The notes under the pieces were generated by a model, which saw only the letters and a list, made by a program, of their open reading frames with translations, did not search any database and was not told the DNA's origin. Of a stretch of DNA of 64,000 bases, positions 8,480 through 50,111 are shown in pieces. Each line of letters opens with the position of its first letter. Within the stretch, counting starts at the first letter, position 1. Source of the stretch: Algoriphagus sp. TR-M9. GTDB lineage: Bacteria; Bacteroidota; Bacteroidia; Cytophagales; Cyclobacteriaceae. The translations under genes and the position numbers were made by a program. The stretch is taken from NCBI RefSeq assembly GCF_027594545.1, contig NZ_CP115160.1, positions 2,737,001 to 2,801,000 of the forward strand, given 5' to 3'.

Positions 8480-8486
8480 TTTTTGA

Positions 8487-29672: not shown

Positions 29673-30920
29673 ATGCACCTAATCAATCCTCAAGCTGTAA
29701 TCGACAAAATGGAAGGGGTAGTAGAAATCAAAAGCTACCTCAATAAAATAAAAATCATCAAGAACCTCTACCTAAAAGGTGCAAATACAGCCAGCGAAAT
29801 CTGTGCTGAAGTAGGAATATCCCTTCCTACAGTCAATTCTTTGCTTGGAGACTTGATGTCCAGTGGCGAAGTAATCAAACATGGAAGAGCAGAATCCCAA
29901 GGTGGCAGAAAGCCAGACCTTTATCGTCTCGCCGAAGACGCATTTTATGTACTTTCGGTAGATCTCTCCAAGTTTAAAATGAACCTCGCGCTCTATTCCT
30001 GCACGCACGAATTGGTTTCTGAAAAAGAGAGCCATCAGGTCACTCTTGATAACGAACAGGAAACCTTTGACCAAGTCTGTGCACACATCGATACATTTTT
30101 ACAAAATTGCGGCAAACCTGCAGACAAAATCATCGCGATTGGCTTTTCCATGCCCGGCTTGGTAGATTCTGTTGGTGGAGTTAACTACACCTATTTCAAA
30201 GTTGGCAATAAAACCCTGCTGGAGACTCTGGAAGAAAGATTTCAGAAAAAAGTATTTCTGGAGAATGATGCAAGAGCCATGACTTTGGCAGAATTTAAGT
30301 TTGCTACCGACCATCATCATAAAAATGTATTAGGCTTATTTATAGGCTGGGGCATTGGTCTGGGTATAATCATAGATGGTAAAATTTACCAAGGAGCCTC
30401 AGGATTTGCCGGAGAGTTCAGTCACTCGCCGATTTTTGAGTCTAGAGATGTTTCCTGTATCTGCGGCAAAAAAGGTTGCCTGGAAGCTGTAGCTTCTGGT
30501 ACAGCCATCGTGAAAATGGCCGAGGAGGCGATCAAGCTGGACAAAGACAGCATTTTAGCACGATTGGCACGAAATAAAGAAGGAAGCATCATGCCCGATC
30601 TCGTGGTGGAAGCGGCCCTTTCGGGAGATCAAAGAGCCATCACTATACTGTCTGAGGCAGGTTTGGATCTAGGGCGGGGAATTTCTATTTTAATTCAAAT
30701 ACTGAATCCGGAATTAATCATCATTGGGGGATCAGTGGCAGAAGCAAATCAATACTTGATCACCCCTATACAGCAAGCATTAAATATTTATAGTATGGCT
30801 AAGTCCCGCGAGAACTCCAAACTCGCCCTTTACCAACTAGGTGAGGATGTAGGACTTCTAGGGGGAGTAGCTGTAGTCAATGAGAAGCTATTTGAAGAAC
30901 TGATCAACCCGGTCAGTTAA
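29673..30920 (+). CDS. ROK-family transcriptional regulator (NagC/XylR type)
   Basis: A 415-residue repressor with an N-terminal winged helix-turn-helix (about residues 15-75, with ANTASEICAEVGISLPTVNS) and a C-terminal ROK sugar-kinase-like domain. The zinc-binding motif CICGKKGCLEA (Cys262, Cys264, Cys269) with an upstream His (FAGEFSHSP, His251) is complete, and GWGIGLGIIIDG binds sugar or nucleotide. These proteins sense a sugar or sugar phosphate and lose DNA affinity. The start is ATG 29673. It is the first gene of the plus-strand locus (VCBS protein, PAP2-type enzyme, sulfatase), 24 bases before the VCBS gene, and probably controls the whole accessory region. Confidence 0.88.
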   Translation: MHLINPQAVIDKMEGVVEIKSYLNKIKIIKNLYLKGANTASEICAEVGISLPTVNSLLGDLMSSGEVIKHGRAESQGGRKPDLYRLAEDAFYVLSVDLSKFKMNLALYSCTHELVSEKESHQVTLDNEQETFDQVCAHIDTFLQNCGKPADKIIAIGFSMPGLVDSVGGVNYTYFKVGNKTLLETLEERFQKKVFLENDARAMTLAEFKFATDHHHKNVLGLFIGWGIGLGIIIDGKIYQGASGFAGEFSHSPIFESRDVSCICGKKGCLEAVASGTAIVKMAEEAIKLDKDSILARLARNKEGSIMPDLVVEAALSGDQRAITILSEAGLDLGRGISILIQILNPELIIIGGSVAEANQYLITPIQQALNIYSMAKSRENSKLALYQLGEDVGLLGGVAVVNEKLFEELINPVS

Positions 30921-30944: not shown

Positions 30945-33900
30945 ATGCGTAATTATCCTGTCTACCGACTAGTACTGCTAATGCTCACATTAGCCATTTC
31001 ACCTTTTGGAACAGGCTTAATTGCTCAGCAGTATAAAGGAAATTTTGAAAAAATCTCTAGCCGTAAATCCAAAATCAACTTCAAAAACCAACTAAAAGAA
31101 GATGAGGAAAATAACATTCTCCGCTATGAGTATTTTTACAATGGCGGTGGTGTAGCAGTAGGAGACCTGGATAATGACGGGTTAGAGGATGTCTTTTTCA
31201 CAGGGAACATGGCTTCAAACAAAGTTTACAAAAACCTAGGTAACTGGAAGTTTGAAGATAAAACCAAGGAAGCCGGGCTAGCGGGTAAGGACACCTGGAC
31301 TACCGGAGTGAGTATGGCGGATGTGAATGGAGATGGTCTTTTGGACATATATGTTTGTTATTCCGGTAAGGGAGCCCCGTCTGATCGTGCCAATGAGCTT
31401 TGGGTCAATAATGGAGACTTTACATTTACTGAACTGGCGCAGAGCTATGGATTAGATGATAAATCCAACTCAACGCAGGCATTATTTTTTGATTTTGACA
31501 GGGATGGAGATCTGGACATGTACCTGCTCAATCATAATATCGAAGTCATAAATGAACTGGAATTTAGCGATGTAAAAAACGAAAGACACCCCTATGCCGG
31601 AGATAAACTCTATAGAAATGACGGAGGAAAATTCACCGATATCAGTGAAAAAGCTGGGATCAAAGGATCAGCACTAGGATTTGGACTTGGAGTAATCTCC
31701 TCCGATATCAATCAAGATGGATGGCCGGATATCCTGGTGACCAATGATTACATAGAGCCCGATTACCTCTATATCAACAATGGTGATGGAACATTCACAG
31801 ATCAGCTAAAAGAATATTTCAGTCATATCTCGCATTTCTCCATGGGAGCTGACATTTCAGATGTAAATAATGATGGAAAACCAGACATCTATACGCTAGA
31901 TATGCTTCCGGAGGATAATGAGCGTCAAAAACTGCTCTATGGCCCTGAAAACTATGAGCACTACGCATTAATGATCAAAGAAGGGTTTTATCATCAGAAT
32001 ATGCGTAACATGCTACAACTGAATCAGGGAAATGGACTTTTCTCAGAGGTGGGGCAGCTTTCTAAAATATCAAATAGCGATTGGAGCTGGTCAGCACTTT
32101 TTTTTGATGCTACGAATAATGGGCAAAAAGACCTTTTTATTACCAATGGATATTTTCGGGATTACACTAATAGAGATTTTTTGAAGTACAAAGGAGACTA
32201 TTACTTCAAGCAAGCTATTGCGAATGAAAAAGCTGACACCTTACATCTGGTGACCTCGATGACCTCTACTCCTATTCACAACTATTTTTTCGAAAATACA
32301 GGAGAACTAAACTTTATGGATCAATCTATTTCTTGGGGTTTTGAAGAAAAAGGTTTTTCCAGCGGAGCTGCATACGCCGACCTGGACAATGACGGTGACC
32401 TAGACCTAGTAGTGAATAATATCAATGAGGCTGCTTCTATCTATGAAAACAAAAGTTCCACAGGAAATTGGCTCCAACTCTCTCTGGTGGATCATTCAAA
32501 CAATTCCTTTGCTATAGGAGCAAAAGTAGAAGTTTTCACAGGAGAGGAAAACCAATCCCTAGAGCTTCAAACCGTACGAGGATTTCAATCCTCAGTAAGT
32601 CCAAGACTACATTTTGGATTAGGAGAAGTCAAAACAGTTCCTTCGATTCAAATCATTTGGCCGGACGGCGCTGAACAAGTCCTGACTGACATTCCCGCCA
32701 ATCAGCATTTAACTGTTAGGCGAGCAAGCAGCCCTTCTTCCTCCCCACAAGAAAAACCCTCACCTCTTCTGGACCCAAGTGATTTTGCCCCGGAATACTC
32801 CTTTGGCGAAGCCTCTTTTAATGACTTCAAGCGACAGCCTCTGATGCTTACTATGCCTAGCTATATCAGTCCTGTCATGGCTACAGGCGATCTGAATGCT
32901 GATGGCAACCCAGAAATCTTTATCGGTGGATCAAAGGGCAATGCTGGAAAAATAATGTCTTATATCCATGGAAAATGGGAAGTGTATACAGGCTTCAAGT
33001 CCGCTAGTGAATTTACAGATGCAGCTGTGATTTTTGAGGACTTTAACGGAGACGGTTATCAAGATCTTTTTGTGGGCAGTGGTGGCTATCACGATTACAT
33101 AGGCTCAGACGAGGCATTGGTTGACCGCCTGTATATCAACGACGGCTCCGGCAAACTGTCAAGAATTCTTTCATTTCCTGATTATAAATTCAGTACGGGA
33201 TCTGCCGTTGCCATAGATGCGAATGCTGATGGAAAGATGGACCTTTTCGTAGGTGGTAAATTAATTCCTGGACGTTACCCCATTATTCCTGAGAGTAAGC
33301 TTTTAATCAATGATGGGGAGGGCAATTTCACAGATCAGACAAACAGCTACTTGCCTAATGGCGGCAAACTTGGGATGATTACAGCTGTGGAAAAAATTGA
33401 TCTAAATGAGGATGGCAGACAGGACTTAGTACTCGCAGGCGAATACATGCCAATCACTTTCTTGATAAATTCTGGAAACACGTTTGTCGACCAAACTTCC
33501 ATGTATTTTGACTCGCCAATCTCTGGCTGGTGGAACACCCTTGCAAAAGCTGATCTGGACGGTGACGGAGACCTTGACCTGATTGCGGGGAACTTTGGGC
33601 TTAATTCGCAGTTTGAAGTGGATGGAGAAAAAATCCTTCGCCTTTATTCGGCAGATTTTGATAATAATGGTTCCATAGATCCGATTCTGGAATGCTTCGT
33701 AGCAGATAATATGTACCCTTACCCCAGTCGTGATGAACTGCTCGACCAGATGGCTAGTATGCGAAGCAAATTCACAGATTATGCATCCTACTCCAAAGCT
33801 ACCATGAGTGATTTATTTTCTGATCAAGCTTTAGAAGAAGCCGAAAAACTGGAAGTAAACACCTTAGAATCAATTACATTAATAAACAATCGCGGCAACT

Positions 33901-34226
33901 TCACCATACAAAACCTACCTAGAATCGCCCAATCCTTCCCCATATACAGCGTTTTACCTTATGATTTAAATCGGGATGGCAAGACAGATTTAATAGTGGG
34001 TGGAAATCAATCCCATACCCGAATCAGAATCGGGAAAATGGACGCGGGACTAGGTCTTGTATTACTGGGGGATGGCAAAGGGAACTTTAGACCATTGAAT
34101 GCCACAGAGTCTGGCTTATCCGTCAAAGGAGACATCAAATCCATCCTTCCTATAGAAACAGATGAAGGAACTCAGATCCTTTTTGGAGTCAATCTAAAAC
34201 CTTTAGAAAGCTACAAAATACGATGA
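30945..34226 (+). CDS. FG-GAP/VCBS-repeat protein with ASPIC/UnbV domain (CRTAC1-like)
   Basis: A 1093-residue exported protein with a signal peptide (hydrophobic core near residues 8-24, cleavage near LIAQQ). The N-terminal half has FG-GAP/VCBS calcium-loop repeats such as DLDNDGLEDV, DVNGDGLLDI, DFDRDGDLDM, DINQDGWPDI and DVNNDGKPDI; an ASPIC/UnbV domain follows (about 525-605); a second set of repeats (DFNGDGYQDL, DANADGKMDL, DLDGDGDLDL, DLNRDGKTDL) fills the C-terminal half. This is a calcium-stabilised beta-propeller architecture, placed at the cell surface or periplasm, with no known catalytic residues. The last four bases overlap the PAP2-type enzyme's start codon, so the two are strongly coupled and may form a complex. 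Confidence 0.9.
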   Translation: MRNYPVYRLVLLMLTLAISPFGTGLIAQQYKGNFEKISSRKSKINFKNQLKEDEENNILRYEYFYNGGGVAVGDLDNDGLEDVFFTGNMASNKVYKNLGNWKFEDKTKEAGLAGKDTWTTGVSMADVNGDGLLDIYVCYSGKGAPSDRANELWVNNGDFTFTELAQSYGLDDKSNSTQALFFDFDRDGDLDMYLLNHNIEVINELEFSDVKNERHPYAGDKLYRNDGGKFTDISEKAGIKGSALGFGLGVISSDINQDGWPDILVTNDYIEPDYLYINNGDGTFTDQLKEYFSHISHFSMGADISDVNNDGKPDIYTLDMLPEDNERQKLLYGPENYEHYALMIKEGFYHQNMRNMLQLNQGNGLFSEVGQLSKISNSDWSWSALFFDATNNGQKDLFITNGYFRDYTNRDFLKYKGDYYFKQAIANEKADTLHLVTSMTSTPIHNYFFENTGELNFMDQSISWGFEEKGFSSGAAYADLDNDGDLDLVVNNINEAASIYENKSSTGNWLQLSLVDHSNNSFAIGAKVEVFTGEENQSLELQTVRGFQSSVSPRLHFGLGEVKTVPSIQIIWPDGAEQVLTDIPANQHLTVRRASSPSSSPQEKPSPLLDPSDFAPEYSFGEASFNDFKRQPLMLTMPSYISPVMATGDLNADGNPEIFIGGSKGNAGKIMSYIHGKWEVYTGFKSASEFTDAAVIFEDFNGDGYQDLFVGSGGYHDYIGSDEALVDRLYINDGSGKLSRILSFPDYKFSTGSAVAIDANADGKMDLFVGGKLIPGRYPIIPESKLLINDGEGNFTDQTNSYLPNGGKLGMITAVEKIDLNEDGRQDLVLAGEYMPITFLINSGNTFVDQTSMYFDSPISGWWNTLAKADLDGDGDLDLIAGNFGLNSQFEVDGEKILRLYSADFDNNGSIDPILECFVADNMYPYPSRDELLDQMASMRSKFTDYASYSKATMSDLFSDQALEEAEKLEVNTLESITLINNRGNFTIQNLPRIAQSFPIYSVLPYDLNRDGKTDLIVGGNQSHTRIRIGKMDAGLGLVLLGDGKGNFRPLNATESGLSVKGDIKSILPIETDEGTQILFGVNLKPLESYKIR

Positions 34227-35548
34227 AAAAACACCTATTTGGCTTCTTTACTATATTTCTCTTAACCCAGCGGGCAATTGCTGTAGAAGAGAAAGTAGAT
34301 TGGCCAAAACTTTATGCAGAGCAGCTTTTTCACATTACGGAAGTCATGGTGACTGATGTGGCCAGCCCACCAGTAGCAGCAAGAATATACGCATACACTA
34401 CACTGGCCTCCTACATCATTACCAAAGAGTGTACAGGTGATTTTTCAAATAAGGAAATCCTCACTGAAACCTACCTTCAGAATTACGACTGGAGCATAAC
34501 GCATAGCCCACTCTCATCTCCTGAATTCAGCGCCATTTTAGCTATGCTCAAAGTAGGTCAGGCAATAATGCCATCGGGCTACCTACTGGAAGCGACGCAA
34601 AAAGAATGGATTGATCAAGCATTGAAAGACAAATTGGTCAGGAAGAAAAATCTAACTGAGCATGTAGAGCTAGCTAGTCAGGTAGCTGAAAAAGTTATGG
34701 AAATAGCCAAAAAAGATGGGTATCTACAGCTGTCAACTTTGACCCGGTATACCCCACAAAAAGGTGAAGGCTTCTGGTATCCAACTCCCCCAGCCTATAT
34801 TTCGGCGGTGGAGCCTGAGTGGAAAACGATCAAGCCATTTTTTATAAAAGACCTGAAGGAATATGACCCCGCTCCTATGGCTCCATTTGATATGAGCGAA
34901 GGAAGTTCATTTCATACCCAATTGATAGAGGTCTACCAAACCACAAACGAATTAAGCGATGAAAGAAAGCTGATAGCCAATTTTTGGGACTGCAATCCAT
35001 TCAAAGTTGAATTTTCAGGCCACATGGCTATTGGCGTCAAAAAGATTTCGCCAGGAGGCCATTGGATAGGAATCACTGGCATTGCTGCGCAAAAAGCAAA
35101 GCTTTCCTTTGCGGAAACTGCCTACATTCATGCGTTGGTGGGCATGACATTGCACGATGCTTTTATTTCCTGCTGGAAGGTAAAATATGATACAGACAGA
35201 ATCCGGCCCGAAACGGTCATTAACCAAAAAATAGATCAACGCTGGAGACCACTACTGCAGACGCCACCTTTCCCCGAATACACCTCTGGTCACTCGGTCA
35301 TTAGCCGGGCTTCGGCGGTGATTTTGACGGGGTATTTTGGAGATGATTTTGAATTCGTTGATAGCTCAGAAACCTACTTTGGCCTACCGGAAAGACCATT
35401 CCCATCTTTTCTTTATGCTTCTGAAGAAGCTGCTATTTCTCGCCTTTATGGGGGAATCCACTTTCGAGACGCTATAGAAGAAGGCGTAAAGCAAGGCGAA
35501 AAAATCGGTGATATGATTTGGACACAAGTCGCTCAAGCCAATAATTGA
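34223..35548 (+). CDS. Vanadium-haloperoxidase/PAP2-type enzyme, exported
   Basis: A 441-residue protein with a signal peptide (cleavage near AIAVE) and the vanadium haloperoxidase/PAP2 phosphatase fold. The oxyanion-site motifs are complete: KYDTDRIRP (Lys321, Arg328), YTSGHSV (Ser355, Gly356, His357) and SRLYGGIHFRDA (Arg407, His413). The same site holds vanadate in peroxidases and phosphate in phosphatases; motifs alone do not decide between them. Its length and helical N-terminal half suit the soluble bacterial haloperoxidase-like branch rather than membrane PAP2 enzymes. It overlaps the VCBS gene by four bases (ATGA) and precedes a sulfatase by 21 bases. It may modify an external aromatic, halide or phosphorylated substrate. 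Confidence 0.85.
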   Translation: MKKHLFGFFTIFLLTQRAIAVEEKVDWPKLYAEQLFHITEVMVTDVASPPVAARIYAYTTLASYIITKECTGDFSNKEILTETYLQNYDWSITHSPLSSPEFSAILAMLKVGQAIMPSGYLLEATQKEWIDQALKDKLVRKKNLTEHVELASQVAEKVMEIAKKDGYLQLSTLTRYTPQKGEGFWYPTPPAYISAVEPEWKTIKPFFIKDLKEYDPAPMAPFDMSEGSSFHTQLIEVYQTTNELSDERKLIANFWDCNPFKVEFSGHMAIGVKKISPGGHWIGITGIAAQKAKLSFAETAYIHALVGMTLHDAFISCWKVKYDTDRIRPETVINQKIDQRWRPLLQTPPFPEYTSGHSVISRASAVILTGYFGDDFEFVDSSETYFGLPERPFPSFLYASEEAAISRLYGGIHFRDAIEEGVKQGEKIGDMIWTQVAQANN

Positions 35549-35569
35549 TCTTAGAAACCACATTATACA

Positions 35570-37012
35570 ATGAAACTTACTTATTTCTTTTCCCTTATCA
35601 CCTCATTCGCAGGTTTATTGAATCTTAGTTCCTGTACATCAAAAGTGGAGCAAAAAGCAGAAAATCCGCTTGAAACAAAACCAAACATCGTATTGATATT
35701 CGCGGATGATATGGGCTATGGTGACCTAGGGGTATATGGGGCCACTCAATGGAAAACTCCCAACTTAGATCAATTGGCAGCCGATGGGGTTCGCTTTACC
35801 CAGTTCTATGTTCCTCATGCGGTTTGCTCCGCATCAAGAGCTGCATTGCTCACTGGAGCCTATGCAAATAGACTGGAAATTTTTGGTGCCCTAGATCACT
35901 CTGCGAAACATGGGTTAAACCCTGAGGAAACTACCATTGCAGAAATGCTCAAGCAAAACGGCTATGCTACTGGAATGGTAGGAAAATGGCATTTGGGACA
36001 TTTGGCGCCTTTTCTACCTACGGAACAAGGCTTTGATTCCTATTACGGACTTCCCTACTCCAATGATATGTGGCCTCATCATCCAGAGGTTAAAGGTTAT
36101 TATCCTCCATTGCCTCTTTATAGAGATACTTCCGTCATAGACACCCTGGATGATCAGAGCATGCTGACGACTAATTACACCGAAGAGGCCATCAAATTTA
36201 TAGAACAAAATAAGGATGAGCCGTTCTTCTTGTACTTGGCACATAGCATGACTCATGTCCCCCTCTTTGTTTCTGATAAATTCAAAGGGAAGTCTGAGCA
36301 AGGTCTTTATGGCGATGTCATGATGGAAGTCGATTGGTCGGTGGGGCAGGTTAGGCAAAAATTAGAAGAGTTGGGTTTAGCAGAAAACACCATTGTGATA
36401 TTCACTTCAGATAATGGCCCTTGGCTTTCCTACGGAGGTCACGCAGGCTTGACTGCCGGGTTGAAGGAAGGAAAAGGAACCTCATGGGACGGAGGTATTC
36501 GCGAGCCGGGGATTTTTGTCTGGCCAGGTCATTTTCCTGCCGGAAAAGTGGAAACACAAGCAGCCATGACGATTGATATTCTGCCTACGCTGGCAGAGAT
36601 TACGAGATCGAAGCTCCCTGATCTACCTATTGATGGAAGAAGTATTTTGCCGATTTTGGAAGGAAAAGAAATGGAACCCAAGCCTTACTTTGCTTATTAC
36701 AACAAAAACGAGCTTCAAGCAGTGATTTACGGCAAATGGAAATTGGTTTTACCTCATACCTATAGAAGTATTCCAGAAGGAACTGAGATGCGAAATGATG
36801 GAATCCCCGTGAAATATCATATGCTGACTCTAGATAAAGCTGAATTATTCGATTTATCGCTTGACCCAAATGAAACTACCGATGTAGGAGCGGACAACGC
36901 TGAAATTCTTGCAAAAATGAACCAGTTTGCCGAAGAGGCAAGAGCAGATTTAGGAGATGCTTTGACCGAATCTGAAGGAACTGGCCTAAGAAAACATGGG
37001 AGGATAGAGTAA
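35570..37012 (+). CDS. Cys-type sulfatase (S1 family), lipoprotein
   Basis: A 480-residue surface or periplasmic lipoprotein (lipobox LNLSSC, Cys about residue 22) of the arylsulfatase family. The formylglycine motif is CSASRAALLTG with Cys86 and Arg90 (Cys-x-Ala/Pro-x-Arg); the metal-binding start NIVLIFADDMGYGDLG, GKWHLGH, the HVPLFVS loop and the DNGPW segment are all present. It hydrolyses sulfate esters and needs formylglycine conversion by an anaerobic or aerobic maturase, not encoded here. It is the last gene of the ROK/VCBS/PAP2-type operon and points to a sulfated substrate for the locus. There is no good terminator in the 167-base gap before the convergent oxidoreductase. Confidence 0.93.
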   Translation: MKLTYFFSLITSFAGLLNLSSCTSKVEQKAENPLETKPNIVLIFADDMGYGDLGVYGATQWKTPNLDQLAADGVRFTQFYVPHAVCSASRAALLTGAYANRLEIFGALDHSAKHGLNPEETTIAEMLKQNGYATGMVGKWHLGHLAPFLPTEQGFDSYYGLPYSNDMWPHHPEVKGYYPPLPLYRDTSVIDTLDDQSMLTTNYTEEAIKFIEQNKDEPFFLYLAHSMTHVPLFVSDKFKGKSEQGLYGDVMMEVDWSVGQVRQKLEELGLAENTIVIFTSDNGPWLSYGGHAGLTAGLKEGKGTSWDGGIREPGIFVWPGHFPAGKVETQAAMTIDILPTLAEITRSKLPDLPIDGRSILPILEGKEMEPKPYFAYYNKNELQAVIYGKWKLVLPHTYRSIPEGTEMRNDGIPVKYHMLTLDKAELFDLSLDPNETTDVGADNAEILAKMNQFAEEARADLGDALTESEGTGLRKHGRIE

Positions 37013-37179: not shown

Positions 37180-39045
37180 TTAATTGTGTTCTATTTCACC
37201 ATCCCAATTCACCTTTTTGGAAAATGGATCCAACATTTCATCAATAAGAACTGAAACCTGTGCTCTATTGAGGTGTAAATCTGCGCTAAAAAATCCTTCA
37301 AGTTCTCTTCTGTTCCAGGCCTGGGTAATTTCTGATAAGGAAGTTCCAGGCTTAACTACATCCATTAAGACCCGAAAACTTTGCCCTGTCAAATAGTCCC
37401 CAGAAGCTCCCCAATAGTCTTTCAACACAGGGTAAAATGGTCTTAACCCTTCAACTAATTCAAATTCTGTAACCAACCTATCCGGATAGAACCAAGTTTG
37501 ATTGGCCCACAAGTAAGGAACGCCTTCCCCTTTTAAAATCCCTGTTGCTCCGATTTTTTGCATAGCTACAAAATGATCCTCATCGGGTTTGGTGTCAATG
37601 AACGGCATGATGAAGGCTCCTTGGGATAAAAGCAAGGATTGAACATCCCGAATGGAAACCGCATCCAGACTTTTCCCTTCTTTTAAAGCAACTGCTGCCA
37701 AAACACCTGCGGCTTGCCCAATTCCCAGGACTACCGGCTGAAGACGGGTAGCGCCATTGACAATATTGGATACTGAAATACTTTTTTCCGCCAAAATCAA
37801 AGCCGGATGCCCTTTTGGAACTAGTGAACCCAGTGGCAGATTGTAAGAGGGAACTCTGATTTTGATGAAGTCGATTGCAGGGGCTTCACGGTTTTTTTTA
37901 TGGTGATGGTCTATGGTATAATCTCCTACTGCCACACCGGTACGGTAAAGTGGCGAGGGCGCATTATAAGGGCTCTTCACAAAAGGCAAAGTAAAATCCA
38001 CTAAGCCCTCAAAACGTCTTGATTCCCTGTGATACGGAATCATCGGCAAATCATCTGCTGTAGGATATTCCTCCTCAGCGATGCCCAAATGCTTAAAACC
38101 CAACTCATGCTGGATATAATAGACAAATCGGAGACTCGCCTGCTTGGCATCTTCTAGGGCTGTTTCTCGCTCCTCTGGACTTTTTTCTATAATGTTCAAA
38201 TAGTAATCATTCCCACAATTCGGCCAATTGATCATGTATTTACCATTGGGAAGTTTTCCATAATTGATCATTTTCTGGCAATCAGAAACCGCCTCCTGAT
38301 CTGTAATCGGGTCAGAATGAGCACATGCACAATCAAATTCTGTAGGATCATAATTCTCTGGTCTAGCAATGGTCTTATCTGCACCCTTTCCATAATCCTC
38401 CAGCGTCACCACATAAGTCAGGTCCTGAATGATATCATTACTTTCTGCTGGCGCAAAGCTTTCACCGATCTCATCTCTTGCATCCATCCCAATACGGTAG
38501 GGTAATCCTTGGGCAGCAGCTACGTCTCCCAATTCTGTGGCATCAATCAACATGGAAGAAAAAACTTCGGTTAATTTTCCATTCTTGCTGTAAGAAACCT
38601 TCCAAAGCCCATTCGAATAATCTGCTGTTACCCAGGTGCTGCTCAGAGAGATCGTCAATGGATTAACGGCATTAGCCATCTCCAGTAGGATTTGACTGCC
38701 CACCTTCGGTTCAAAAAGTGTATTGCTCACCCATCCAGTAGCTAATTTTTCGGCCCCTCCATAATGAGCTTCAAGTCTGGATTTAAACTCTCCCCAAATC
38801 CCAGAAGGAAGCCTATGATTTCCATCTATCGCTGACACTCCTGCTGAGGTCAGCATTCCCCCCAGCCAGGGAGTAGCTTCTAGGATCAAAGTTTTGACGC
38901 CTAATCTACCTGCAGCGATCCCGGCCGAAGTGCCACTTGCCCCTCCCCCGACGATAATCAAATCGTATTTTTCTTGGCCAAAAGCAGGCCATGACAAATG
39001 TAAAAAGACCGCAATAAGTGAGGTGAACAGCAATTTGATTCTCAT
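37180..39045 (-). CDS. Exported FAD-dependent oxidoreductase
   Basis: A 621-residue protein with a Sec signal peptide (MRIKLLFTSLIAVFLHLS, cleavage near AFGQ) followed at once by a Rossmann FAD motif IIVGGGASGTSAGIAAG and ILEATPWLGGM. The central part resembles the FAD-dependent oxidoreductase family that Bacteroidota and Planctomycetes carry in sugar-degradation loci (GxGQAAGVLAAVAL near residue 445 is the second dinucleotide-contact segment). The C-terminal 120 residues form an added domain. A Sec rather than Tat signal means FAD must be bound outside. It overlaps the upstream ROK gene by four bases and lies downstream of the SusC-SusD pairs. The substrate is unknown, possibly a sugar or polyol. 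Confidence 0.82.
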   Translation of the reverse strand: MRIKLLFTSLIAVFLHLSWPAFGQEKYDLIIVGGGASGTSAGIAAGRLGVKTLILEATPWLGGMLTSAGVSAIDGNHRLPSGIWGEFKSRLEAHYGGAEKLATGWVSNTLFEPKVGSQILLEMANAVNPLTISLSSTWVTADYSNGLWKVSYSKNGKLTEVFSSMLIDATELGDVAAAQGLPYRIGMDARDEIGESFAPAESNDIIQDLTYVVTLEDYGKGADKTIARPENYDPTEFDCACAHSDPITDQEAVSDCQKMINYGKLPNGKYMINWPNCGNDYYLNIIEKSPEERETALEDAKQASLRFVYYIQHELGFKHLGIAEEEYPTADDLPMIPYHRESRRFEGLVDFTLPFVKSPYNAPSPLYRTGVAVGDYTIDHHHKKNREAPAIDFIKIRVPSYNLPLGSLVPKGHPALILAEKSISVSNIVNGATRLQPVVLGIGQAAGVLAAVALKEGKSLDAVSIRDVQSLLLSQGAFIMPFIDTKPDEDHFVAMQKIGATGILKGEGVPYLWANQTWFYPDRLVTEFELVEGLRPFYPVLKDYWGASGDYLTGQSFRVLMDVVKPGTSLSEITQAWNRRELEGFFSADLHLNRAQVSVLIDEMLDPFSKKVNWDGEIEHN

Positions 39046-39905
39046 GTAACTGGGTTTTCATTAATTTTCAAACAAGCTCCTAGTAGTGCAGAATTCTCAC
39101 CAAGCTCGGAGATTTTAAGTGAGACGGGATAGCCCATGGTATCTAAATACTCCTGAGTAGCCGGTAAAAAATACTCGGATGCCAAACTGACCTTTCCTCC
39201 TAAAACTACTCCTTCGGATTTTAGCCTAATGAGATAGGGAAATAAAAACTCACCTAAAGCACGACCGAATTTTTCGAAAATAGCCTTACGAACTGACGCC
39301 TCGACATACTCTGAAAAAAGCCCTTTCACTCCTTTGATCTCCAACCCAAACTGATGTAAAGCCTCCTTGACAAACCATCCTGTGCCAAGATAATCTTCTG
39401 CTATTCCATCCCGAAATGGCGCAGCCCACAGCTTCGCATCTTTTACAACATCTTGCACTTTGATGGCTGATCCTAGTCCAGTCCCTAAAGTCACACCTAG
39501 TGAATGATGAACGTTTCTTCCAGCTCCGGCGTAGCTTTCACCTGCAAGAAATGCCTCCGCATCATTGATAAAACAAATTTGTTTTTCTGCGATATCCAGG
39601 CTGTTAGCGAGCAATTCCCTCACGGAAAGTTGGTAGAGTGAAGCCATCTTGCCTTGGTCCCTGATCAGCGAAACCCCATTCTCATAGTCAAAAGGCCCTG
39701 GCATTGCGATTCCGATATACACATTTTTAGCACCTTGAGATGAAGACTTGATCACATTTGACCATTCACGAATTATATCTTCTTTTCTTCCAAATGTATC
39801 GACGGCGGCTTCACAAAAATCTGAAAAGGAAGCTGATTCAGATTTTAAATGCACTTTTGCAGCGGAGATATGAGAACCTCCTATATCAACTCCTATTTTA
39901 ATCAT
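39042..39905 (-). CDS. ROK-family sugar kinase-like protein lacking the zinc motif
   Basis: A 287-residue ROK-family protein. It has the N-terminal phosphate-binding loop GVDIGGSHISAAKV, AMPGPFDYENG and the catalytic Asp in CFINDAEAF, followed by GVTLGTGLGSAI. The zinc-binding CxCGxxGCxE motif and the preceding GHxx His of typical glucokinase/NagK-type ROK proteins are missing; the region instead reads PFRDGIAEDYLGTGWFV. Such zinc-less members exist and may still phosphorylate a sugar. There is no DNA-binding domain, so it is not a regulator. It overlaps the FAD oxidoreductase by four bases (ATGA) and is downstream of the SusC-SusD pair, with a terminator between. Confidence 0.82.
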   Translation of the reverse strand: MIKIGVDIGGSHISAAKVHLKSESASFSDFCEAAVDTFGRKEDIIREWSNVIKSSSQGAKNVYIGIAMPGPFDYENGVSLIRDQGKMASLYQLSVRELLANSLDIAEKQICFINDAEAFLAGESYAGAGRNVHHSLGVTLGTGLGSAIKVQDVVKDAKLWAAPFRDGIAEDYLGTGWFVKEALHQFGLEIKGVKGLFSEYVEASVRKAIFEKFGRALGEFLFPYLIRLKSEGVVLGGKVSLASEYFLPATQEYLDTMGYPVSLKISELGENSALLGACLKINENPVT

Positions 39906-40004: not shown

Positions 40005-41600
40005 TTAGTTATCCCACCATACCGTAGTAGTCCAGGTATCTCCACCCATGCTGGAAATCGCATTGGCTAGGTTTTCCGGATTGGTAGTACTCTCTGATGA
40101 AGGGTAAAGCTGTCTTCTTGGGATTTGGCCCTGGGAGAAATTACCGGTGTAATTAACCGGAGTAAGTTCTGGGTATCCAGATCTTTTCCAATTGTTCCAA
40201 GACTCTACGAAATTAGCTAAAATCCCTGTAGTAGCCCAAATCTGCTCATTGATCATTTGAAGTGAAGCTTCAGCACTACTGGTATCCAATGGATTGGCAG
40301 CTACAAAAGATGCTGCATCAGAAGCAGACACACTTGCTCCACCAAATTTGCCGATGGTAACCATCGCAGCTTCAAGGCCCGCTTCATAATGCTCAGCTGC
40401 TGACATAGGCACCGAGTATCCTCTGGCCGCTGCATCTGCTAGTAAAAACTGGATTTCAGCGTAAGTCAGGATGAACACAGGTGCATCTCTATCTCTATAG
40501 ATGGCGGTAGGCCTAGAGTAATTCCCAATTGGCGCCAAGTCATCACCACTTCCCGTTCCTCCTGGATAGTTTGGTGCATTAGATACGTCCGTGGCACCGC
40601 CTCTTAGGTCATAGCCATTAGGAAGCCCCAACTGATCTTCAGGAGCGTTATTACCCGGCTCCGTACTTCTGTTTCCAGCTAAGCCAGCCACTGGAACTTC
40701 AGCAATAACCGAAAGCCTAGGATCATCATTTGCTTTTAGGAAATTGATCAACTTATCAGACCAGCGAACCTCATATACATCATCAGTTACATTCAACGCA
40801 TTGGCACTGGAGTTTGCATATCCGTTTGCCTGATCGGAAGCCAGTACCGCTTCATCATCGGTAGAGCTGAATACGCCTCCAGCGATTGCTTTTTGAACAT
40901 AAGACTGAGCTGAAGCTGGATCTACGTCTACCATTCTCATGGCCATTCTCAGCATAATGGAATAACCTAGTTTCTTCCACTTGGTCAAATCTCCATCATA
41001 CAGCACGTCATTTCTGATCGGGTCACCAGATTCATTGATTGAGCTTAGGGCTGATTCTAAGTCAGACAGCATTGCCATATAGGCTTCCGACTGCGGATCA
41101 TATTTTGGCTGGGTAATGCCTTCCTCTGCCAGCAAAGCTTCAGAATATGGCAAATCACCATAAATATCAGAGACAAATGAAAGCGTAAGTACTTTCCAGA
41201 TCTCTCCTACGGCAACTAAATTAGAATAGCCTTTTTCTTCAGCCAGTTTCTGCATTTGATAGACTCTAGATGCAGAAGAATACCCGTCATTCCAGACACT
41301 TTGTATATAACTATTGGTACTTCCAGATGCCACATACTTATCCGCATTGGAATAATAGTTTGCCCCACCGGTAGAGGTGGAAGCCATCACTTGTACCCAC
41401 ATGCTTTGAAACAGGATGGCTCCGGTATAGCCGGTCATCATGTTACTATAGTTGGCAGATACAGTAGGCAAAATCAAGTTGGGGTCGAAAACTTCCCCAT
41501 CCGCACGGTTAGGATCAGTATTGATCTCTGCAAAGTCACCATCGCAACTAGAAGCCACCAATAATACACCCGTAAGGATTATGCTTATATATTTTTTCAT
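40005..41600 (-). CDS. SusD/RagB-family surface lipoprotein (pair A)
   Basis: A 531-residue outer-membrane lipoprotein (lipobox VASSC, Cys at residue 19) of the SusD-like_2 type, with the usual DFAEINTDPNRA opening. It caps its SusC partner and binds the imported ligand. TPR-like helices fill the middle (for example WKVLTLSFVSDIYGDLPYSE, about 134-153); the C-terminus has the family's QIPRRQLYPSSESTTNPENL segment. It begins 1 base after the SusC stop and is co-transcribed with it. The nutrient (sugar, peptide or other) cannot be deduced. Confidence 0.94.
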   Translation of the reverse strand: MKKYISIILTGVLLVASSCDGDFAEINTDPNRADGEVFDPNLILPTVSANYSNMMTGYTGAILFQSMWVQVMASTSTGGANYYSNADKYVASGSTNSYIQSVWNDGYSSASRVYQMQKLAEEKGYSNLVAVGEIWKVLTLSFVSDIYGDLPYSEALLAEEGITQPKYDPQSEAYMAMLSDLESALSSINESGDPIRNDVLYDGDLTKWKKLGYSIMLRMAMRMVDVDPASAQSYVQKAIAGGVFSSTDDEAVLASDQANGYANSSANALNVTDDVYEVRWSDKLINFLKANDDPRLSVIAEVPVAGLAGNRSTEPGNNAPEDQLGLPNGYDLRGGATDVSNAPNYPGGTGSGDDLAPIGNYSRPTAIYRDRDAPVFILTYAEIQFLLADAAARGYSVPMSAAEHYEAGLEAAMVTIGKFGGASVSASDAASFVAANPLDTSSAEASLQMINEQIWATTGILANFVESWNNWKRSGYPELTPVNYTGNFSQGQIPRRQLYPSSESTTNPENLANAISSMGGDTWTTTVWWDN

Positions 41601-41601
41601 A

Positions 41602-44600
41602 TTAGTTCAATTTGAAATTAAGATTAAACCCAAAAGATCTGGTGCTAGGTAGGTTACCACCTTCTATACCTGTATAGTTGATGTTAGAACCAAAACTAGC
41701 TTCTGGGTCAATATTGTCTGCCTTGCGCATCAGAATAGCTAAATTTCTAGCTACAAAGGATACATCAAGCCCTTTCAATACCGGTGTATTTCCGAACCAT
41801 TTTTCCGGGAAGGAATACCCCAATGTTAATTGTCTCAATTTGATGAAATCACCATCTACTACACTGGTGCTGGTAACGTTTTGGGCTAAAGCTCTGTAGT
41901 ATTCCTCTGCTGGAGCAGTCACTCCATCATTGGTCACACCACCTTCTCTTCCTTCTAAGGTTACTTGATTCAAACCTCTAAAGATGGAGTAAAACTCCGT
42001 TGCCGAAAGGACTTTATTGCCAAAGTTGTAATCAATCAGGAAGGATAGTGCGATGCCTTTATAATTGAACTCGTTATTCCATCCTCCATAGAGGGTAGGC
42101 AGAACCGTACCCATATTGATCAGCTCCCCTCTCACTGGAAGGCCTGCTTCGTCTACTTGTATAGTTCCATCCTCATTATAGGCATAATCATAGGCTCTGA
42201 TTTGTGGGCCGGCTTCTCCCACCACGAATGCTGTCACCGCATTTCCCAGTGTACCTCTATTTTGACCTAGGTTGATAGGATTATTATTCGGATCTGTACT
42301 TAGGATTTTATTTTTCACACTGGACATATTGAAGGAAGATCTCCACATGAAATTCGGTGTTTGTACAGGTGTACCTGTCACCAAAACCTCAAGACCTTTG
42401 TTACTGGTAGACCCTGTAGCCACTACTGAGCTGTTGAATCCAGAGGTGATGCTGAGGTTAGCATTCATGATCTCATTGTGTGTCTCTTTCTGATAGTAAG
42501 CGACATCAAACGCCAGGCGATTGTTAAAGAAACTCAAATCCAAACCGAACTCAATTTCACTGGTAGTAAATGGTTTCAGATTCAAATTTGGAAGCGCTGT
42601 AGGAGAAGAACCTGCAGGTACGCCGTTGTAAGAGTTTGCAGAGGTATAATAAAAGGTACTCTGATAGGCATCAAAAGGCTCTCCACTGGTCACTGCATAC
42701 GAAGCTCTTAATTTACCAAAATCAAGTGCTGGCATATCGATCAACTGATCAAACACAAATGCTGCAGCCACTGAAGGCGAGAAGATACTGTTATTGTCAG
42801 TAGGCAAGGTACTGTACACATCGTATCTACCAGTGGTAGTCAAGGTTAATATGCTGTTGTAACCAATACCTAAGGAATAATATCCTGAGTGTACCTCCCG
42901 CTCATCGTAATCATAAGATCTGGAGAAAGTCTCCACGTTGAAAGGTGAGTAAAGATATGGAAGCACAAATCGGCTACCTCCAACTCCCACAGTTTCAAAC
43001 TTATTATTCCGCATATTGACACCGGCCAGGGCGTCTAGATTCCATTTTTCATTCAGATCAAATGTAGCCCCCAAAATACCATCAATGTTAGTCTCTGATC
43101 TCTGGCTTTGGCCTCTACTGTTCAGGTTTCCCTTTAGGTCTCCGGTGTATGCCAAGCCGTATGGGTCTACACTGAAGAAGTCATCATTCGAGGCGTCATT
43201 TCCTAATCTCACCATGGCATAGATGTCATCTGTGAAATTATATTTGGTGGAAATCGCTGAGATAGTACGCTTTCTACCTAAATCATTGATTCCTTGATTA
43301 ACGATAAAATAAGGGTTCGTCACGTAGATATCATCACTGAAAACCGTTTCTGCACCAGTCTCCGGATCAAAACCAGGGGCAAAAATTCCCTGGCTGATGT
43401 TTGGGGCCAATAGCAAGAAGTTGTTTGGGTTTTTAGGTCCGTCACTGAGGTTAGGGACATTTGTAGACTTCTGGTCAATGTAATTGATCATGGCAGTGAC
43501 ACTCAGCTTGTCTGTAATGTTTTGTTCCACATTTAGGTTAATGGTCAATCGATCCACTCCACTGCTTGGCACAATAGACTTTGCATCCAGATTGGAAACA
43601 GACATTCTAAAAGAACCATCCTCTCCTAGTCCTTTGGAAAGTGAAACTGTATTGGTAAAGTTAGTGCCGGTTCTATAAAAATTGATGTATCCATCACTGG
43701 TAGGGGAATAAGGATACTGATTGCCATCAAAACCAATGACTGAACTTCCGTCCATCATAGCTCCCCAGGCCAACCTTCCTGTGGACTGAGCGTCGGTAGC
43801 TGTGGCAGGTTTAGCCCCCCCTGTACCTTGCCCATACACCTGCTGAAAATCGGTAAAGTCTACTGGATCTTCTACCATATAGTTCATGGTGTAGTTCAAG
43901 GACCAATCTCCGCCTTTTGCACCTTTCTTGGTCGTGATCAGGATCACGCCGTTAGATGCTCTGGATCCGTAAAGTGCAGAAGCAGCCTGACCTTTCAGTA
44001 CGGTCATGGTCTCAATATCGTCCGGGCTAAGGTTTCCTATCCCATCTCCACTATCAGCTCCTCCCCATTGACCAGCAGATCCTCTTTGGGTATTGTCCAT
44101 AGGGATACCATTGATTACATAAAGGGGAGACCCTGTACCACTGATACTTGGCAGACCTCTCAAGGTAATCTTGGAAGTTCCTCCAGGGCCGGAATTTGTT
44201 CCTTTCACCACTAAGCCTGCCACGCGGCCGGCCAGTGAATTGGCAACGTTGGTTTCTCTGGCTTGAGTCAAGGATTCACTCCCCACCTCAGTTACAGAAT
44301 ACCCTAGCGTTTCTTTTTCTTTACTGATACCCAGGGCCGTTACTACGACCTCGGATAGTTCGCTGGCATCTTCATCCAGCACCACATTCAGTTCTGTTTT
44401 ATCTCCTACCGCTATCTCCTGTGGAGCATAACCGATAAAGGAAAAAACCAACACTGAAGATGAACTCACAGACAGGGAGAACTGGCCATCTACATCTGTA
44501 GTGGTCCCAGTCTGGTTACTTTTATCCAGGATGGTAACTCCTGGCATAGGCAAACCGTCAGACGATGAAGTCACGGTACCTCTGAGCACCCTATTCTGGG

Positions 44601-44667
44601 CTTGAGCAATGGCCGCCAGGCCAAAAATCAAAACCAGAGTAAATGCAATTGGTAGCAATTTTCTCAT
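41602..44667 (-). CDS. SusC/RagA-family TonB-dependent outer-membrane transporter (pair A)
   Basis: A 1021-residue TonB-linked transporter. It has a signal peptide (MRKLLPIAFTLVLIFGLAAI), a carboxypeptidase-regulatory-like domain (about 26-115, GVTILDKSNQTGTTTDVDGQ), a plug (about 120-245, with LQG-like GLPSISGTGSPLYVING) and a long beta-barrel ending in Phe-type strand residues (FGFNLNFKLN). No N-terminal signalling (FecR-interacting) extension is present. With SusD it imports an oligomer or small ligand using TonB energy. The leader upstream is about 460 bases long and AT-rich. The N-terminal 120 residues are similar to the second SusC in the window (46803-50111), suggesting an old duplication of the pair. 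Confidence 0.95.
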   Translation of the reverse strand: MRKLLPIAFTLVLIFGLAAIAQAQNRVLRGTVTSSSDGLPMPGVTILDKSNQTGTTTDVDGQFSLSVSSSSVLVFSFIGYAPQEIAVGDKTELNVVLDEDASELSEVVVTALGISKEKETLGYSVTEVGSESLTQARETNVANSLAGRVAGLVVKGTNSGPGGTSKITLRGLPSISGTGSPLYVINGIPMDNTQRGSAGQWGGADSGDGIGNLSPDDIETMTVLKGQAASALYGSRASNGVILITTKKGAKGGDWSLNYTMNYMVEDPVDFTDFQQVYGQGTGGAKPATATDAQSTGRLAWGAMMDGSSVIGFDGNQYPYSPTSDGYINFYRTGTNFTNTVSLSKGLGEDGSFRMSVSNLDAKSIVPSSGVDRLTINLNVEQNITDKLSVTAMINYIDQKSTNVPNLSDGPKNPNNFLLLAPNISQGIFAPGFDPETGAETVFSDDIYVTNPYFIVNQGINDLGRKRTISAISTKYNFTDDIYAMVRLGNDASNDDFFSVDPYGLAYTGDLKGNLNSRGQSQRSETNIDGILGATFDLNEKWNLDALAGVNMRNNKFETVGVGGSRFVLPYLYSPFNVETFSRSYDYDEREVHSGYYSLGIGYNSILTLTTTGRYDVYSTLPTDNNSIFSPSVAAAFVFDQLIDMPALDFGKLRASYAVTSGEPFDAYQSTFYYTSANSYNGVPAGSSPTALPNLNLKPFTTSEIEFGLDLSFFNNRLAFDVAYYQKETHNEIMNANLSITSGFNSSVVATGSTSNKGLEVLVTGTPVQTPNFMWRSSFNMSSVKNKILSTDPNNNPINLGQNRGTLGNAVTAFVVGEAGPQIRAYDYAYNEDGTIQVDEAGLPVRGELINMGTVLPTLYGGWNNEFNYKGIALSFLIDYNFGNKVLSATEFYSIFRGLNQVTLEGREGGVTNDGVTAPAEEYYRALAQNVTSTSVVDGDFIKLRQLTLGYSFPEKWFGNTPVLKGLDVSFVARNLAILMRKADNIDPEASFGSNINYTGIEGGNLPSTRSFGFNLNFKLN

Positions 44668-45187: not shown

Positions 45188-46774
45188 TTATTCAACATCC
45201 CAGAACAGCGCATTGGTAAGATTATCCTGAGGCTGAACCACGGAATAATTTTCAGCATTATAGGTCTGCTCTGAACTTGGATACACCCATCTGTAAGGAG
45301 GCTGGCTTTGCTGATTGGACTGATCAGTCCAGAACTCTAGATCGACTAGCCCCAATCTTCTATATTCAGCCCAGTTTTCGTTTGGCTGGATCACATTGAA
45401 GTGTAACCATTTTTGTTCTGCGATCAACTTCAGCTTTTCCTCAGCAGAAGTAGCAGCAGTCCAAGAGACGTCCCCTTGCGCCAAGTAAGCATCCCTATCA
45501 GCACTAGTAGGCTCCACTGGATCAGGGGAATCTCCATTATTCGAAATGCTTCTCAGATACACATATTGATCAATTGAATTGAGAACCCCAGTCTCATAAG
45601 CAGCCTGCGCCATGGCATTCTGTCCAGTTTTCAGATAATATTCAGCAGCAAGGAAGTTAACTTCCGAAGCAGAGATGATAATTCCAGGGAAATTTTGGTT
45701 CCTAGACAAAGTAGATCTATTGTAGATACTCAATGTACCGGCAAGTACCAACTCATTCTGAGCAGAAGCATTCAGAAGTGGATCCAAGCCCATATATTGA
45801 CCCGGCTCTGCCTCTAGCCCTGGTTCAAATACATACGTCAGACGAGGATCCTCATTAGCTAGCATATGATCTATGATGACCTTGCCCGCAATATTTCCAT
45901 CCCAATCTTCCAAACCGCTCTGAAATGAATTTGCTTGCATCCAAGTACCTGCCGTGTAACCATCCCAGGCAATGAAGTCCTGGATGGAAGTCACTACTGG
46001 GTAAGTAGCTGGATTTGAAAGAATATCGCCGATTTCTGCATTAGCTCTTGCAGAGAATGTACTAGTACCACTTACTCGAGTCAACATACGAAGTCTCACA
46101 GAGTTGATGTACTTTTTCCAAAGCATCAAATCACCATCATTGATTACGTCTTGGATTTCAAACTCAGCCAAAACACCAGGGTTCACAGTCATAGTATTCA
46201 TCTCATCAGCCATTGCAGCCAACTCGTCCAACATCATGGTATACAGTGTCTCGGCATCGTCATAAGGAGCATAAGAACTCTGATAATCTCCTCCATTTTG
46301 ACTCAGCATAGCCGCCTGAGTAAAAGGAATATCGCCATGATAATCTATTTCTTTCTGTGCTTGATCGTATAGAAACGTTTTCGCAGCGATCATGTAGATC
46401 CTTTGATCTGCAGCGGCAACTTCAGTTAGACCTTCATAGATTTTTTCGATCTCTCTGTACTGCGCCAATGTCTCATAGAAAGCACGCCATCTTCTATTTA
46501 TTGCTTCAGAACCAGGCACGTATTGGTTTTCACCATTTACCCAGCCGATCGCTTGAGTATATCGGTTACTTGTAATTCTTTGCCCGACAAAGTAGTCATC
46601 GTACGTCGGAAGCACATAATTCCTGAATGAATAGATCATACCTGTGAACTGCTTCCCGACTGTAGTTTCAGAGACTTTAGCTGGATCTGTATAGTTATCT
46701 GCAAAGTCTGATTCGGTGCAGCTAGCTAATGAAGCTGCCACGATTGCACCTATATATAAACTTTTAAATTTCAT
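45188..46774 (-). CDS. SusD/RagB-family surface lipoprotein (pair B)
   Basis: A 528-residue SusD-like_2 lipoprotein with lipobox AASLASC (Cys at residue 19) and the DFADNYTDPAKVSE opening. Helical TPR-type segments (for example WRAFYETLAQYREIEKIYEG, about 90-109) and the C-terminal QPPYRWVYPSSEQTYNAENY block match the family. It follows its SusC by 28 bases and is transcribed with it, ending in a good terminator. Sequence similarity to the pair A SusD is low except for family motifs, so the ligands may differ. Confidence 0.93.
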   Translation of the reverse strand: MKFKSLYIGAIVAASLASCTESDFADNYTDPAKVSETTVGKQFTGMIYSFRNYVLPTYDDYFVGQRITSNRYTQAIGWVNGENQYVPGSEAINRRWRAFYETLAQYREIEKIYEGLTEVAAADQRIYMIAAKTFLYDQAQKEIDYHGDIPFTQAAMLSQNGGDYQSSYAPYDDAETLYTMMLDELAAMADEMNTMTVNPGVLAEFEIQDVINDGDLMLWKKYINSVRLRMLTRVSGTSTFSARANAEIGDILSNPATYPVVTSIQDFIAWDGYTAGTWMQANSFQSGLEDWDGNIAGKVIIDHMLANEDPRLTYVFEPGLEAEPGQYMGLDPLLNASAQNELVLAGTLSIYNRSTLSRNQNFPGIIISASEVNFLAAEYYLKTGQNAMAQAAYETGVLNSIDQYVYLRSISNNGDSPDPVEPTSADRDAYLAQGDVSWTAATSAEEKLKLIAEQKWLHFNVIQPNENWAEYRRLGLVDLEFWTDQSNQQSQPPYRWVYPSSEQTYNAENYSVVQPQDNLTNALFWDVE

Positions 46775-46802
46775 TTTCTTTTTGGATTAGTTGGGTCCTC
46801 AA

Positions 46803-49800: not shown

Positions 49801-50111
49801 GAAAGCTCATTTGTATCTTCCACCAACTCAATGTCGATTTTAGACTGATTGCCTACTGTTACTTCTTGGGTGGCATAGCCAATAAAAGAAAAAACCAAAA
49901 CTGAATTTGGACCTACCTGGATCGAATACTCTCCGTCTATATTGGTAGTAGTACCCGTCTGGTTCGTTTTGTCCAGGACTGTAACACCTGGCATGGGCAA
50001 GCCATCATCCGCTGTGATTACACCTGACACTACTCGCTCTTGTGCCTGTACCGAGGCAGTTATGCCCAGCATCAAGATGAGTGACAATGCAATTGATAAA
50101 ATTTGTTTCAT
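46803..50111 (-). CDS. SusC/RagA-family TonB-dependent outer-membrane transporter (pair B)
   Basis: A 1102-residue TonB-linked transporter: signal peptide (MKQILSIALSLILMLGITAS), regulatory-like domain (about 26-115, GVTVLDKTNQTGTTTNIDGE), plug (about 120-250, NITIRGLNSITGNTQPLIIM) and barrel ending in a terminal Phe (VGFMLRAKF). Like pair A it lacks a signalling extension, so regulation by an ECF sigma/anti-sigma pair is not indicated. It is 81 residues longer than its paralogue at 41602-44667. It is preceded by a 640-base leader that includes a dispersed repeat. It imports an unknown ligand with the neighbouring SusD. Confidence 0.95.
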   Translation of the reverse strand: MKQILSIALSLILMLGITASVQAQERVVSGVITADDGLPMPGVTVLDKTNQTGTTTNIDGEYSIQVGPNSVLVFSFIGYATQEVTVGNQSKIDIELVEDTNELSEFVVSAFGMEKEQKKLGYATTTIQADELIKVGTPNVATALYGKAPGVRIQSGAGGATSAVNITIRGLNSITGNTQPLIIMDGVPIRNENVTNNNYWGDQRLRGNGLLDINPEDIANISILKGASAAALYGSEAVNGVVLITTKKGNSGKKGFSVDFSANVARDEIAYLPRYQNVRGPGAPLHVYDYGQDDDGFFTYDDGVRGLASTNNNFGPEFDGRMVRSWDGEMRPYVAQEDNYAALFNNPLSSSVNVAVANNSEFADFRFSLTRQDNEALSLNSKNNKNIANLNATFRITDRWKTDVMVNYINQNTKNRPYSIDRMINNFGGMMTRFDNGDWYLDNYQTSRGYKYVVGQNTQSLTPDENIIYNGFMDAIGDYVWRVNKHNLNETSNRVISVLTNTYKITDDLSLRGRISTDFTNRYSEDKRATERPLAFGNSGMFSMNNETFNILYGDVFLTYTKNLAEDISISAMAGYTGTKETRRELFTRTNGGLSSENLFDLIASNQQVVSNATRSNRVIDALVGTANFDYKGFWFLEGTIRRDRTSTMNPENNSFVYPSVNTSLAISEMVEMPQFITFAKLRGSWGIVGNYPGLYRANIAYTQNTLDGVLYTVMPSSFGNDGIRPEQKHEYEIGLDARFFGNRLGIDLSYYNAQIRDQILPLTLPNTSGASSVLTNIGTLRNKGVEMALNATIMQSGSFMWDMTLNLARNINTVEKLANDATELLHADYDGGAAQLRSVVGRPMGDLYAHPIETDANGDNIVQPNGLYKIDANNWKRVGNYNPDAVGGLMNNLSYKNFTFSAMMDFQIGGSVMPTGINWMKSRGLTEESLKFRNEETGGLAYYRVTGEDGITRGVQVDHSTTAGPNGEAVFHDGMLMDGVTADGQPNTNVISQALYYNATYNWGGPQYSQSRYELYIQDNTYLKMRELSLGYTLPQSFAQRIGASNVNVSVFGRNLFFLYRNIKDLDPEVLTAGSNWTQTITSAGTNPATRTVGFMLRAKF

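Follow-up and report, generated by a model that had tools for sequence, protein, structure and literature searches.

A vanadium-iodoperoxidase-family enzyme paired with an FG-GAP/ASPIC protein at a putative sugar-uptake locus of Algoriphagus sp. TR-M9

The vanadium-dependent haloperoxidase (VHPO) family, CRTAC1-like proteins carrying the ASPIC/UnbV domain, and SusC/SusD (SusCD) polysaccharide-utilization loci (PULs) are each already known. PULs are usually controlled by sensor-type regulators other than ROK proteins. The closest described enzymes are the vanadium iodoperoxidases (VIPOs) of Zobellia, Zg-VIPO1 and Zg-VIPO2 (PDB IDs: 4CIT and 4USZ), and the Zobellia iodoperoxidase was reportedly strictly specific for iodide when originally described; the cellular role of bacterial vanadium iodoperoxidases is, to our knowledge, open. 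A table entry in PMC8407142 gives the halide of the Zobellia iodoperoxidase as 'I'. We analyzed a 64,000-nucleotide stretch (the window) of Algoriphagus sp. TR-M9, which sits in a single contig of 4,816,080 bases and encodes a VIPO-type enzyme directly behind a large FG-GAP/ASPIC protein and a ROK regulator. We propose, with a probability of roughly 0.55, that an extracytoplasmic haloperoxidase-propeller module has been drawn into a regulon for sugar uptake controlled by a NagC-type ROK regulator, in which a halide-oxidizing enzyme would act beside a sugar-binding propeller. The openly licensed literature, to which our search was confined, yielded no published account of the phylum-wide pairing, its co-inheritance or its NagC/nagB-like setting, no link of a haloperoxidase with FG-GAP or ASPIC/UnbV domains or, among the papers listed, with VCBS domains, and none of a vanadium-dependent haloperoxidase with SusC and SusD.

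The enzyme and its double-propeller partner

Four genes follow one another on the plus strand, with the coordinates, strands and spacings of a preliminary description proving exact on recheck. The gene for a ROK-family transcriptional regulator (29673..30920) is separated by 24 bases from that for the FG-GAP/ASPIC protein (30945..34226; 1093 aa), which overlaps by 4 bases the gene for the VIPO-family enzyme (34223..35548; 441 aa, PAP2/VHPO fold), followed after 21 bases by a sulfatase gene (35570..37012). The overlap is an ATGA at 34223–34226, a stop/start arrangement from which the FG-GAP/ASPIC protein and the haloperoxidase would be made together through translational coupling. Signal sequences, judged by eye, stand at the N-termini of the FG-GAP/ASPIC protein, the enzyme and the sulfatase, and the first two are predicted to be exported.

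The enzyme scores 40.7 bits against the Pfam PAP2 profile. Its top match among PDB sequences is the Zobellia vanadium iodoperoxidase 4CIT (E 1.3e-100); other VHPOs in this set match at E 4.9e-4 or weaker, and no acid or lipid phosphatase appears at E≤0.1. The AlphaFold model superimposes on 4USZ with a TM score of 0.82 (E 6.6e-27), and the fold matches run in the order 4USZ, 4CIT, then chloroperoxidases and their relatives, with acid phosphatases at E 9.3e-4 or weaker. All seven residues that we take to form the vanadate pocket, K321, R328, S355-G356-H357, R407 and H413, are present, which bears out the earlier claim of a complete haloperoxidase/PAP2 active site. The same residues, in the order K321, R328, S355, G356, H357, R407 and H413, are conserved in 161, 161, 157, 156, 161, 161 and 161 of 161 homologues (locus L145 was excluded from this count and from the count of 114 pairs below). 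The enzyme thus resembles Zg-VIPO1/2 in length, fold and vanadate pocket. A grouping with plain PAP2 phosphatases was checked and is not the case, the nearest solved relatives by sequence and by fold being iodoperoxidases; on sequence and model the enzyme is assigned to the VHPO family, bacterial VIPO type. It would use vanadate and may oxidize halide.

The main rival to this proposal starts from the same pocket: in the cell the enzyme could be a vanadate-free phosphatase that takes an exported sugar phosphate or a phosphorylated glycan as its substrate, with the propeller protein and the sulfatase helping to strip a substituted glycan. Phosphate fits the pocket, and the fold matches include 3bb0, in which a phosphate intermediate is trapped in an apo-chloroperoxidase. 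Against this stand the iodoperoxidases as nearest relatives by both measures and the weakness of the phosphatase matches, and we consider a phosphatase role somewhat unlikely.

The FG-GAP/ASPIC protein matches FG-GAP_3 with 259.9 bits over nine stretches and UnbV_ASPIC with 85.5 bits, PF13517, PF01839 and PF07593 all being above cut-off. Fold comparison finds the CRTAC1 fold, and the protein is predicted to consist of a CRTAC1-like N-terminal propeller with ASPIC and a second propeller at about residues 604–1093. It differs from CRTAC1/ASPIC-UnbV proteins in being about twice as long, with this second propeller, and in having many conserved non-calcium residues. The N-terminal propeller of aldos-2-ulose dehydratase (PDB ID: 4a7k) was considered and set aside as evidence of function: it shares 10% identity, the LGI1 propeller scored higher (30.7), and 4a7k occurs in the VIA-align list, not among the 50 Foldseek matches listed nor among the 45 sequence matches. 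The likeness is taken as one of fold only. Propeller matches to DDB1, spliceosome and similar proteins were set aside as generic.

Conservation and co-inheritance of the pair

Neighbors were counted by our own open reading frame (ORF) calling and phmmer, with proteins of the window or its relatives as queries, at 80 loci from close relatives. For the phylum, a sample of 392 genomes was searched; 78 hold the enzyme at E≤1e-20, and from the 130 matches outside the source genome we took 80 loci, the 60 best-scoring and 20 hand-picked lower down for spread. The FG-GAP/ASPIC gene lies directly upstream of the enzyme at 64 of the 80 close-relative loci; the other 16 have a nagB-like gene instead (13 loci) or neither (3 loci, of which L044 is cut at a contig end). 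Across the phylum it stands directly upstream on the same strand at 51/80 loci (a short FG-GAP piece at two, L127 and L180), or at 48/80 when counted by tblastn within 400 nt; the 60 best-scoring loci account for 44 by ORFs and 43 by tblastn. Anywhere in the fetched stretch, an FG-GAP gene is found at 63/80. The pair is therefore conserved outside this genome, as had been asked of it at the outset.

The association is close at the level of the genes. Among 114 pairs with a partner longer than 500 aa, the genes overlap in 74 and are spaced by 30 nt or less in 106; overlaps occur in 55 of 64 close-relative pairs and in 18 of 49 phylum pairs (partners longer than 500 aa only, with the source genome's own second copy counted). 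An ASPIC protein is present in 77 of the 78 enzyme-bearing genomes (the exception is G247) and in 120 of the 314 others (Fisher p 6e-26, a figure that, like the counts, ignores kinship), hence in 197 of the 392 genomes with at least one each. For paralogous pairs in ten genomes, enzyme and partner distances correlate (r 0.469), a value reached by none of 1000 within-genome partner shuffles (mean r 0.032, maximum 0.405). Main groups reappear in the enzyme tree (94 of 162 rows kept after thinning by identity and length) and in the FG-GAP tree (83 of 145 rows; its non-adjacent rows come mostly from VHPO-holding loci, which makes the frequency of unpaired ASPIC proteins unreadable from it). In the 8-row subclade of ZgVIPO1, an FG-GAP gene lies upstream in six of the seven other rows, L159 being the exception. 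The conserved overlap and the co-inheritance suggest, and do no more than suggest, a physical complex of the enzyme and the propeller protein.

The source genome itself repeats the arrangement. It encodes two iodoperoxidase-like enzymes at E≤1e-20, each directly preceded by a co-oriented ASPIC gene (gaps of −4 and 216), and five ASPIC proteins in all; with so few of each, both enzymes adjoining an upstream ASPIC gene argues that the pairing is not chance. The second enzyme (contig 1, 274252–275460; gap 216) groups with ZgVIPO1 in a 35-row clade of the enzyme tree (support 89); its pair lies beside a bifunctional trehalose-phosphate synthase/phosphatase gene, and trehalase or GH65 genes occur close to other members of this clade. 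The third VHPO homologue of the genome is a distant one (7756–9369, a 537-aa frame; 67 bits, E 1.3e-15) and has no FG-GAP neighbor in its fetched stretch.

The other three ASPIC genes of the source genome (L202, L203 and L204) are each preceded by a SusC-like and a SusD-sized gene, at one locus with a 433-aa gene between, and the fetched stretches around them hold no haloperoxidase. SusC/D-type genes also lie in the fetched stretches of at least 28/80 phylum loci, counted with few queries. Both observations fit a reading, compatible with the others, in which ASPIC proteins accompany SusCD quite generally, the haloperoxidase is one cargo gene among many, and the pairing is a by-product of shared SusCD sugar loci that reflects no functional bond. 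The stop/start overlap in 74/114 pairs, the co-inheritance of paralogous pairs and the reappearance of the main groups in both trees speak against it, and we hold it to be quite unlikely.

Several variants were seen among the loci. At L147, L148, L151, L153, L157, L161–L163, L165 and L171, the enzyme is preceded by at least two FG-GAP/ASPIC genes in tandem and directly followed by a 299–306 aa protein from a single cluster (the member scanned, from L165, is GyrI-like). A fusion candidate at L145, a 1622-codon open frame, resolved into FG-GAP frames in tandem plus a VHPO frame of its own. A rule-of-thumb lipobox count (79 pairs with neither, 8 with both, 17 mixed, and 10 with the propeller uncalled) did not bear out the idea that enzyme and propeller protein are alike in being lipoproteins or soluble.

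Regulator, neighbors and sugar context

The regulator (415 aa) combines a winged helix-turn-helix (PF13412) with a ROK domain (PF00480, E 2.3e-52, 178.8 bits) and is NagC/Mlc-like. The source genome holds no other full-length match to it, the remaining matches lying in 318- and 287-aa frames. Of the 80 close relatives, 67 have a co-oriented ROK regulator upstream and 41 a ROK kinase-like protein, and in 17 a nagB-like gene accompanies the ROK kinase at the enzyme locus. The sister genera Cyclobacterium, Lunatimonas, Pleomorphovibrio and Echinicola show the order ROK regulator, nagB-like gene, ROK kinase, enzyme, with the regulator at the head being the orthologue of the window's own, and Echinicola retains the FG-GAP gene between ROK kinase and enzyme. 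The window thus shares a NagC-like ROK regulator with the NagC/NagB amino-sugar genes; the source genome's own nagB-like gene (77% identical) and ROK kinase lie at about 0.99 Mb, some 1.77 Mb from the window locus, with no ROK regulator beside them. No nagB-like gene occurs in the fetched stretches of the 80 phylum loci. The association with NagC-like and nagB-like genes favors amino sugars over algal phenolics. A palindrome 5' of the ROK gene, CTTATTT-4-AAATAAG, was tried as a NagC-type operator; it has one other genomic copy, a loose form recurs at the corresponding position for few of the 67 other ROK genes examined, and the idea was dropped.

The sulfatase is of the lipoprotein type (480 aa, lipobox LSSC), matches PF00884 at E 6e-64 (216.7 bits) and arylsulfatase A at E 1.1e-82, and carries a CSASR motif, presumably that of the sulfatase active site. 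A like sulfatase is found in 30/80 close relatives and near 2/80 phylum loci, which shows that the module does not always include one; we regard it as a local addition. Convergent with it lies a gene for an FAD-dependent oxidoreductase (37180..39045, minus strand; PF12831, 1.4e-90) that, judged by eye, bears a signal sequence of Sec-like type; in the PDB it is matched only over its nucleotide-binding N-terminal part, at E 8.7e-5 at best. This flavoprotein is present in 28/80 relatives, and an FAD_oxidored or amine oxidase flavoprotein lies near the module in 32/80. At phylum loci L158, L164, L141, L139 and L133, a protein of 440–476 aa from one cluster is encoded directly upstream of the FG-GAP/VHPO pair, preceded in four of them by a protein of 192–227 aa; one member was scanned per cluster, giving weak matches, below cut-off, to a copper-monooxygenase C-domain and a haem-binding domain (L158) and to AhpC/TSA (L141).

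Next on the minus strand come a ROK kinase-like protein (39042..39905; 287 aa, PF00480 2.8e-14, with the ROK profile matching residues 4–148), a SusD-like lipoprotein (40005..41600; PF12771, 4.4e-70) and a SusC/RagA TonB-dependent transporter (41602..44667; TIGR04056, 1e-184). A second SusD/SusC pair (45188–50111) adjoins the first, so that SusC/SusD pairs at 40005–44667 and 45188–50111 both lie beside the module; relatives of the second pair are found near the module as SusD in 8/80 and SusC in 2/80 close relatives, many of whose stretches end before that point. An alpha-amylase-family gene (55203–57218) lies further on, on the far side of genes for glutamine synthetase and a radical-SAM protein. 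In sharing two SusC/SusD pairs and a sulfatase, the window resembles SusCD polysaccharide-utilization loci; it differs from them in its ROK regulator, its haloperoxidase and the lack of any glycoside hydrolase (GH) or polysaccharide lyase domain among 11 proteins scanned in the 28.9–50.1 kb interval. The view that this is not a standard PUL is therefore upheld as to the missing glycoside hydrolase and weakened by the two adjoining SusC/SusD pairs and by GH92 genes near the pair in 8/80 close relatives. Trehalase or GH65 genes lie near 14/80 phylum loci, one GH65 protein scoring 1125 bits as a kojibiose hydrolase. With neighbors this varied across relatives and phylum, the module appears linked to sugars in many places and not to one sugar.

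These neighbors bear on the phosphatase rival from two sides. The sulfatase, GH92 and trehalase or GH65 genes are the hydrolase and sugar company that a phosphatase might keep. Redox genes recur by the module all the same, as FAD proteins at 32/80 close-relative loci and as the two clusters above in 4 and 5 phylum loci, the scanned members of which match AhpC/TSA or a copper-monooxygenase domain weakly and below cut-off.

Alternatively, the enzyme could oxidize iodide or bromide for defense or halogen handling (peroxide detoxification or iodine uptake) and be merely co-regulated with sugar genes. The induction of Zobellia vIPO3 on the brown alga Ascophyllum nodosum relative to alginate, an expression result given in PMC9296495, is consistent with such a role. 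The neighbors here and in relatives are instead genes for sugar uptake, amino sugars or disaccharides, and no dehalogenase or iodide transporter was found among the 28 window proteins scanned against Pfam, a set outside which smaller and other ORFs fall. We consider this alternative unlikely.

Proposed mechanism and implications

In the sugar-linked module that we propose, an (amino-)sugar signal would cause the ROK regulator to release the operon. The propeller protein would bind a sugar-containing ligand, or might itself be sugar-active, outside the inner membrane. Beside it the enzyme, with vanadate bound and hydrogen peroxide perhaps derived from the flavoprotein, would oxidize iodide or bromide, and the product would be trimmed and then imported by the sulfatase and the SusCD proteins. 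The contact with the propeller, the sugar ligand and the amino-sugar signal to the ROK regulator are steps that we infer from this setting. Still more specific, and in our judgment very unlikely, is halide-mediated oxidative glycan uptake, in which peroxide from an exported flavin oxidase would let the vanadium enzyme convert iodide or bromide to hypohalite at a glycan held by the double propeller, and the oxidized or cleaved (amino-)sugar would be imported by SusCD under NagC-type control.

A number of observations weigh against the sugar-linked module. In the enzyme tree, the window enzyme falls in a clade of 47 of the 94 rows (support 100) that does not include ZgVIPO1, and its K319 and F260 stand in place of D and Y, respectively, in ZgVIPO1, at positions reportedly mutated in the ZgVIPO1 study. 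Because it lies outside the ZgVIPO1 clade, we file the enzyme under the VHPO family and leave iodide specificity open. Its model, with a pLDDT of 84.7, is poor at residues 169–174, 188–196 and 259–275. The pair is rarer at the 20 lower-scoring phylum loci (7 by ORFs or 5 by tblastn); 29 of the 80 phylum loci have no ASPIC gene directly upstream, three of them carrying one on the enzyme's other side; and one clade of Cyclobacteriaceae, which includes Cyclobacterium and Lunatimonas, retains the enzyme without its FG-GAP partner. From these unpaired loci and the partnerless clade it follows that the partner is not obligatory. A nearest-neighbor test of co-inheritance gave exact agreement in only 23 of 50 pairs (median rank 2), the neglect of kinship noted above tempers the co-occurrence counts, and no FG-GAP/VHPO fusion was seen among the loci examined. 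On the sugar side, the regulator's best NCBIfam model is NagC, where its 182 bits fall short of the cut-off (650), which makes it NagC-like only, and one nagB-like member reaches 196 bits on NF002557 against a cut-off of 384. A role for the flavoprotein as peroxide source is possible, and we infer it.

The conserved partner, the type of regulator and the sugar context together offer a clue to the function of bacterial iodoperoxidases that can be put to the test. They also provide a first functional setting for the large FG-GAP/ASPIC proteins, which many Bacteroidota encode in multiple copies. Halide-mediated glycan uptake, if true, would offer this phylum a way around glycoside hydrolases that does not depend on hydrolysis.

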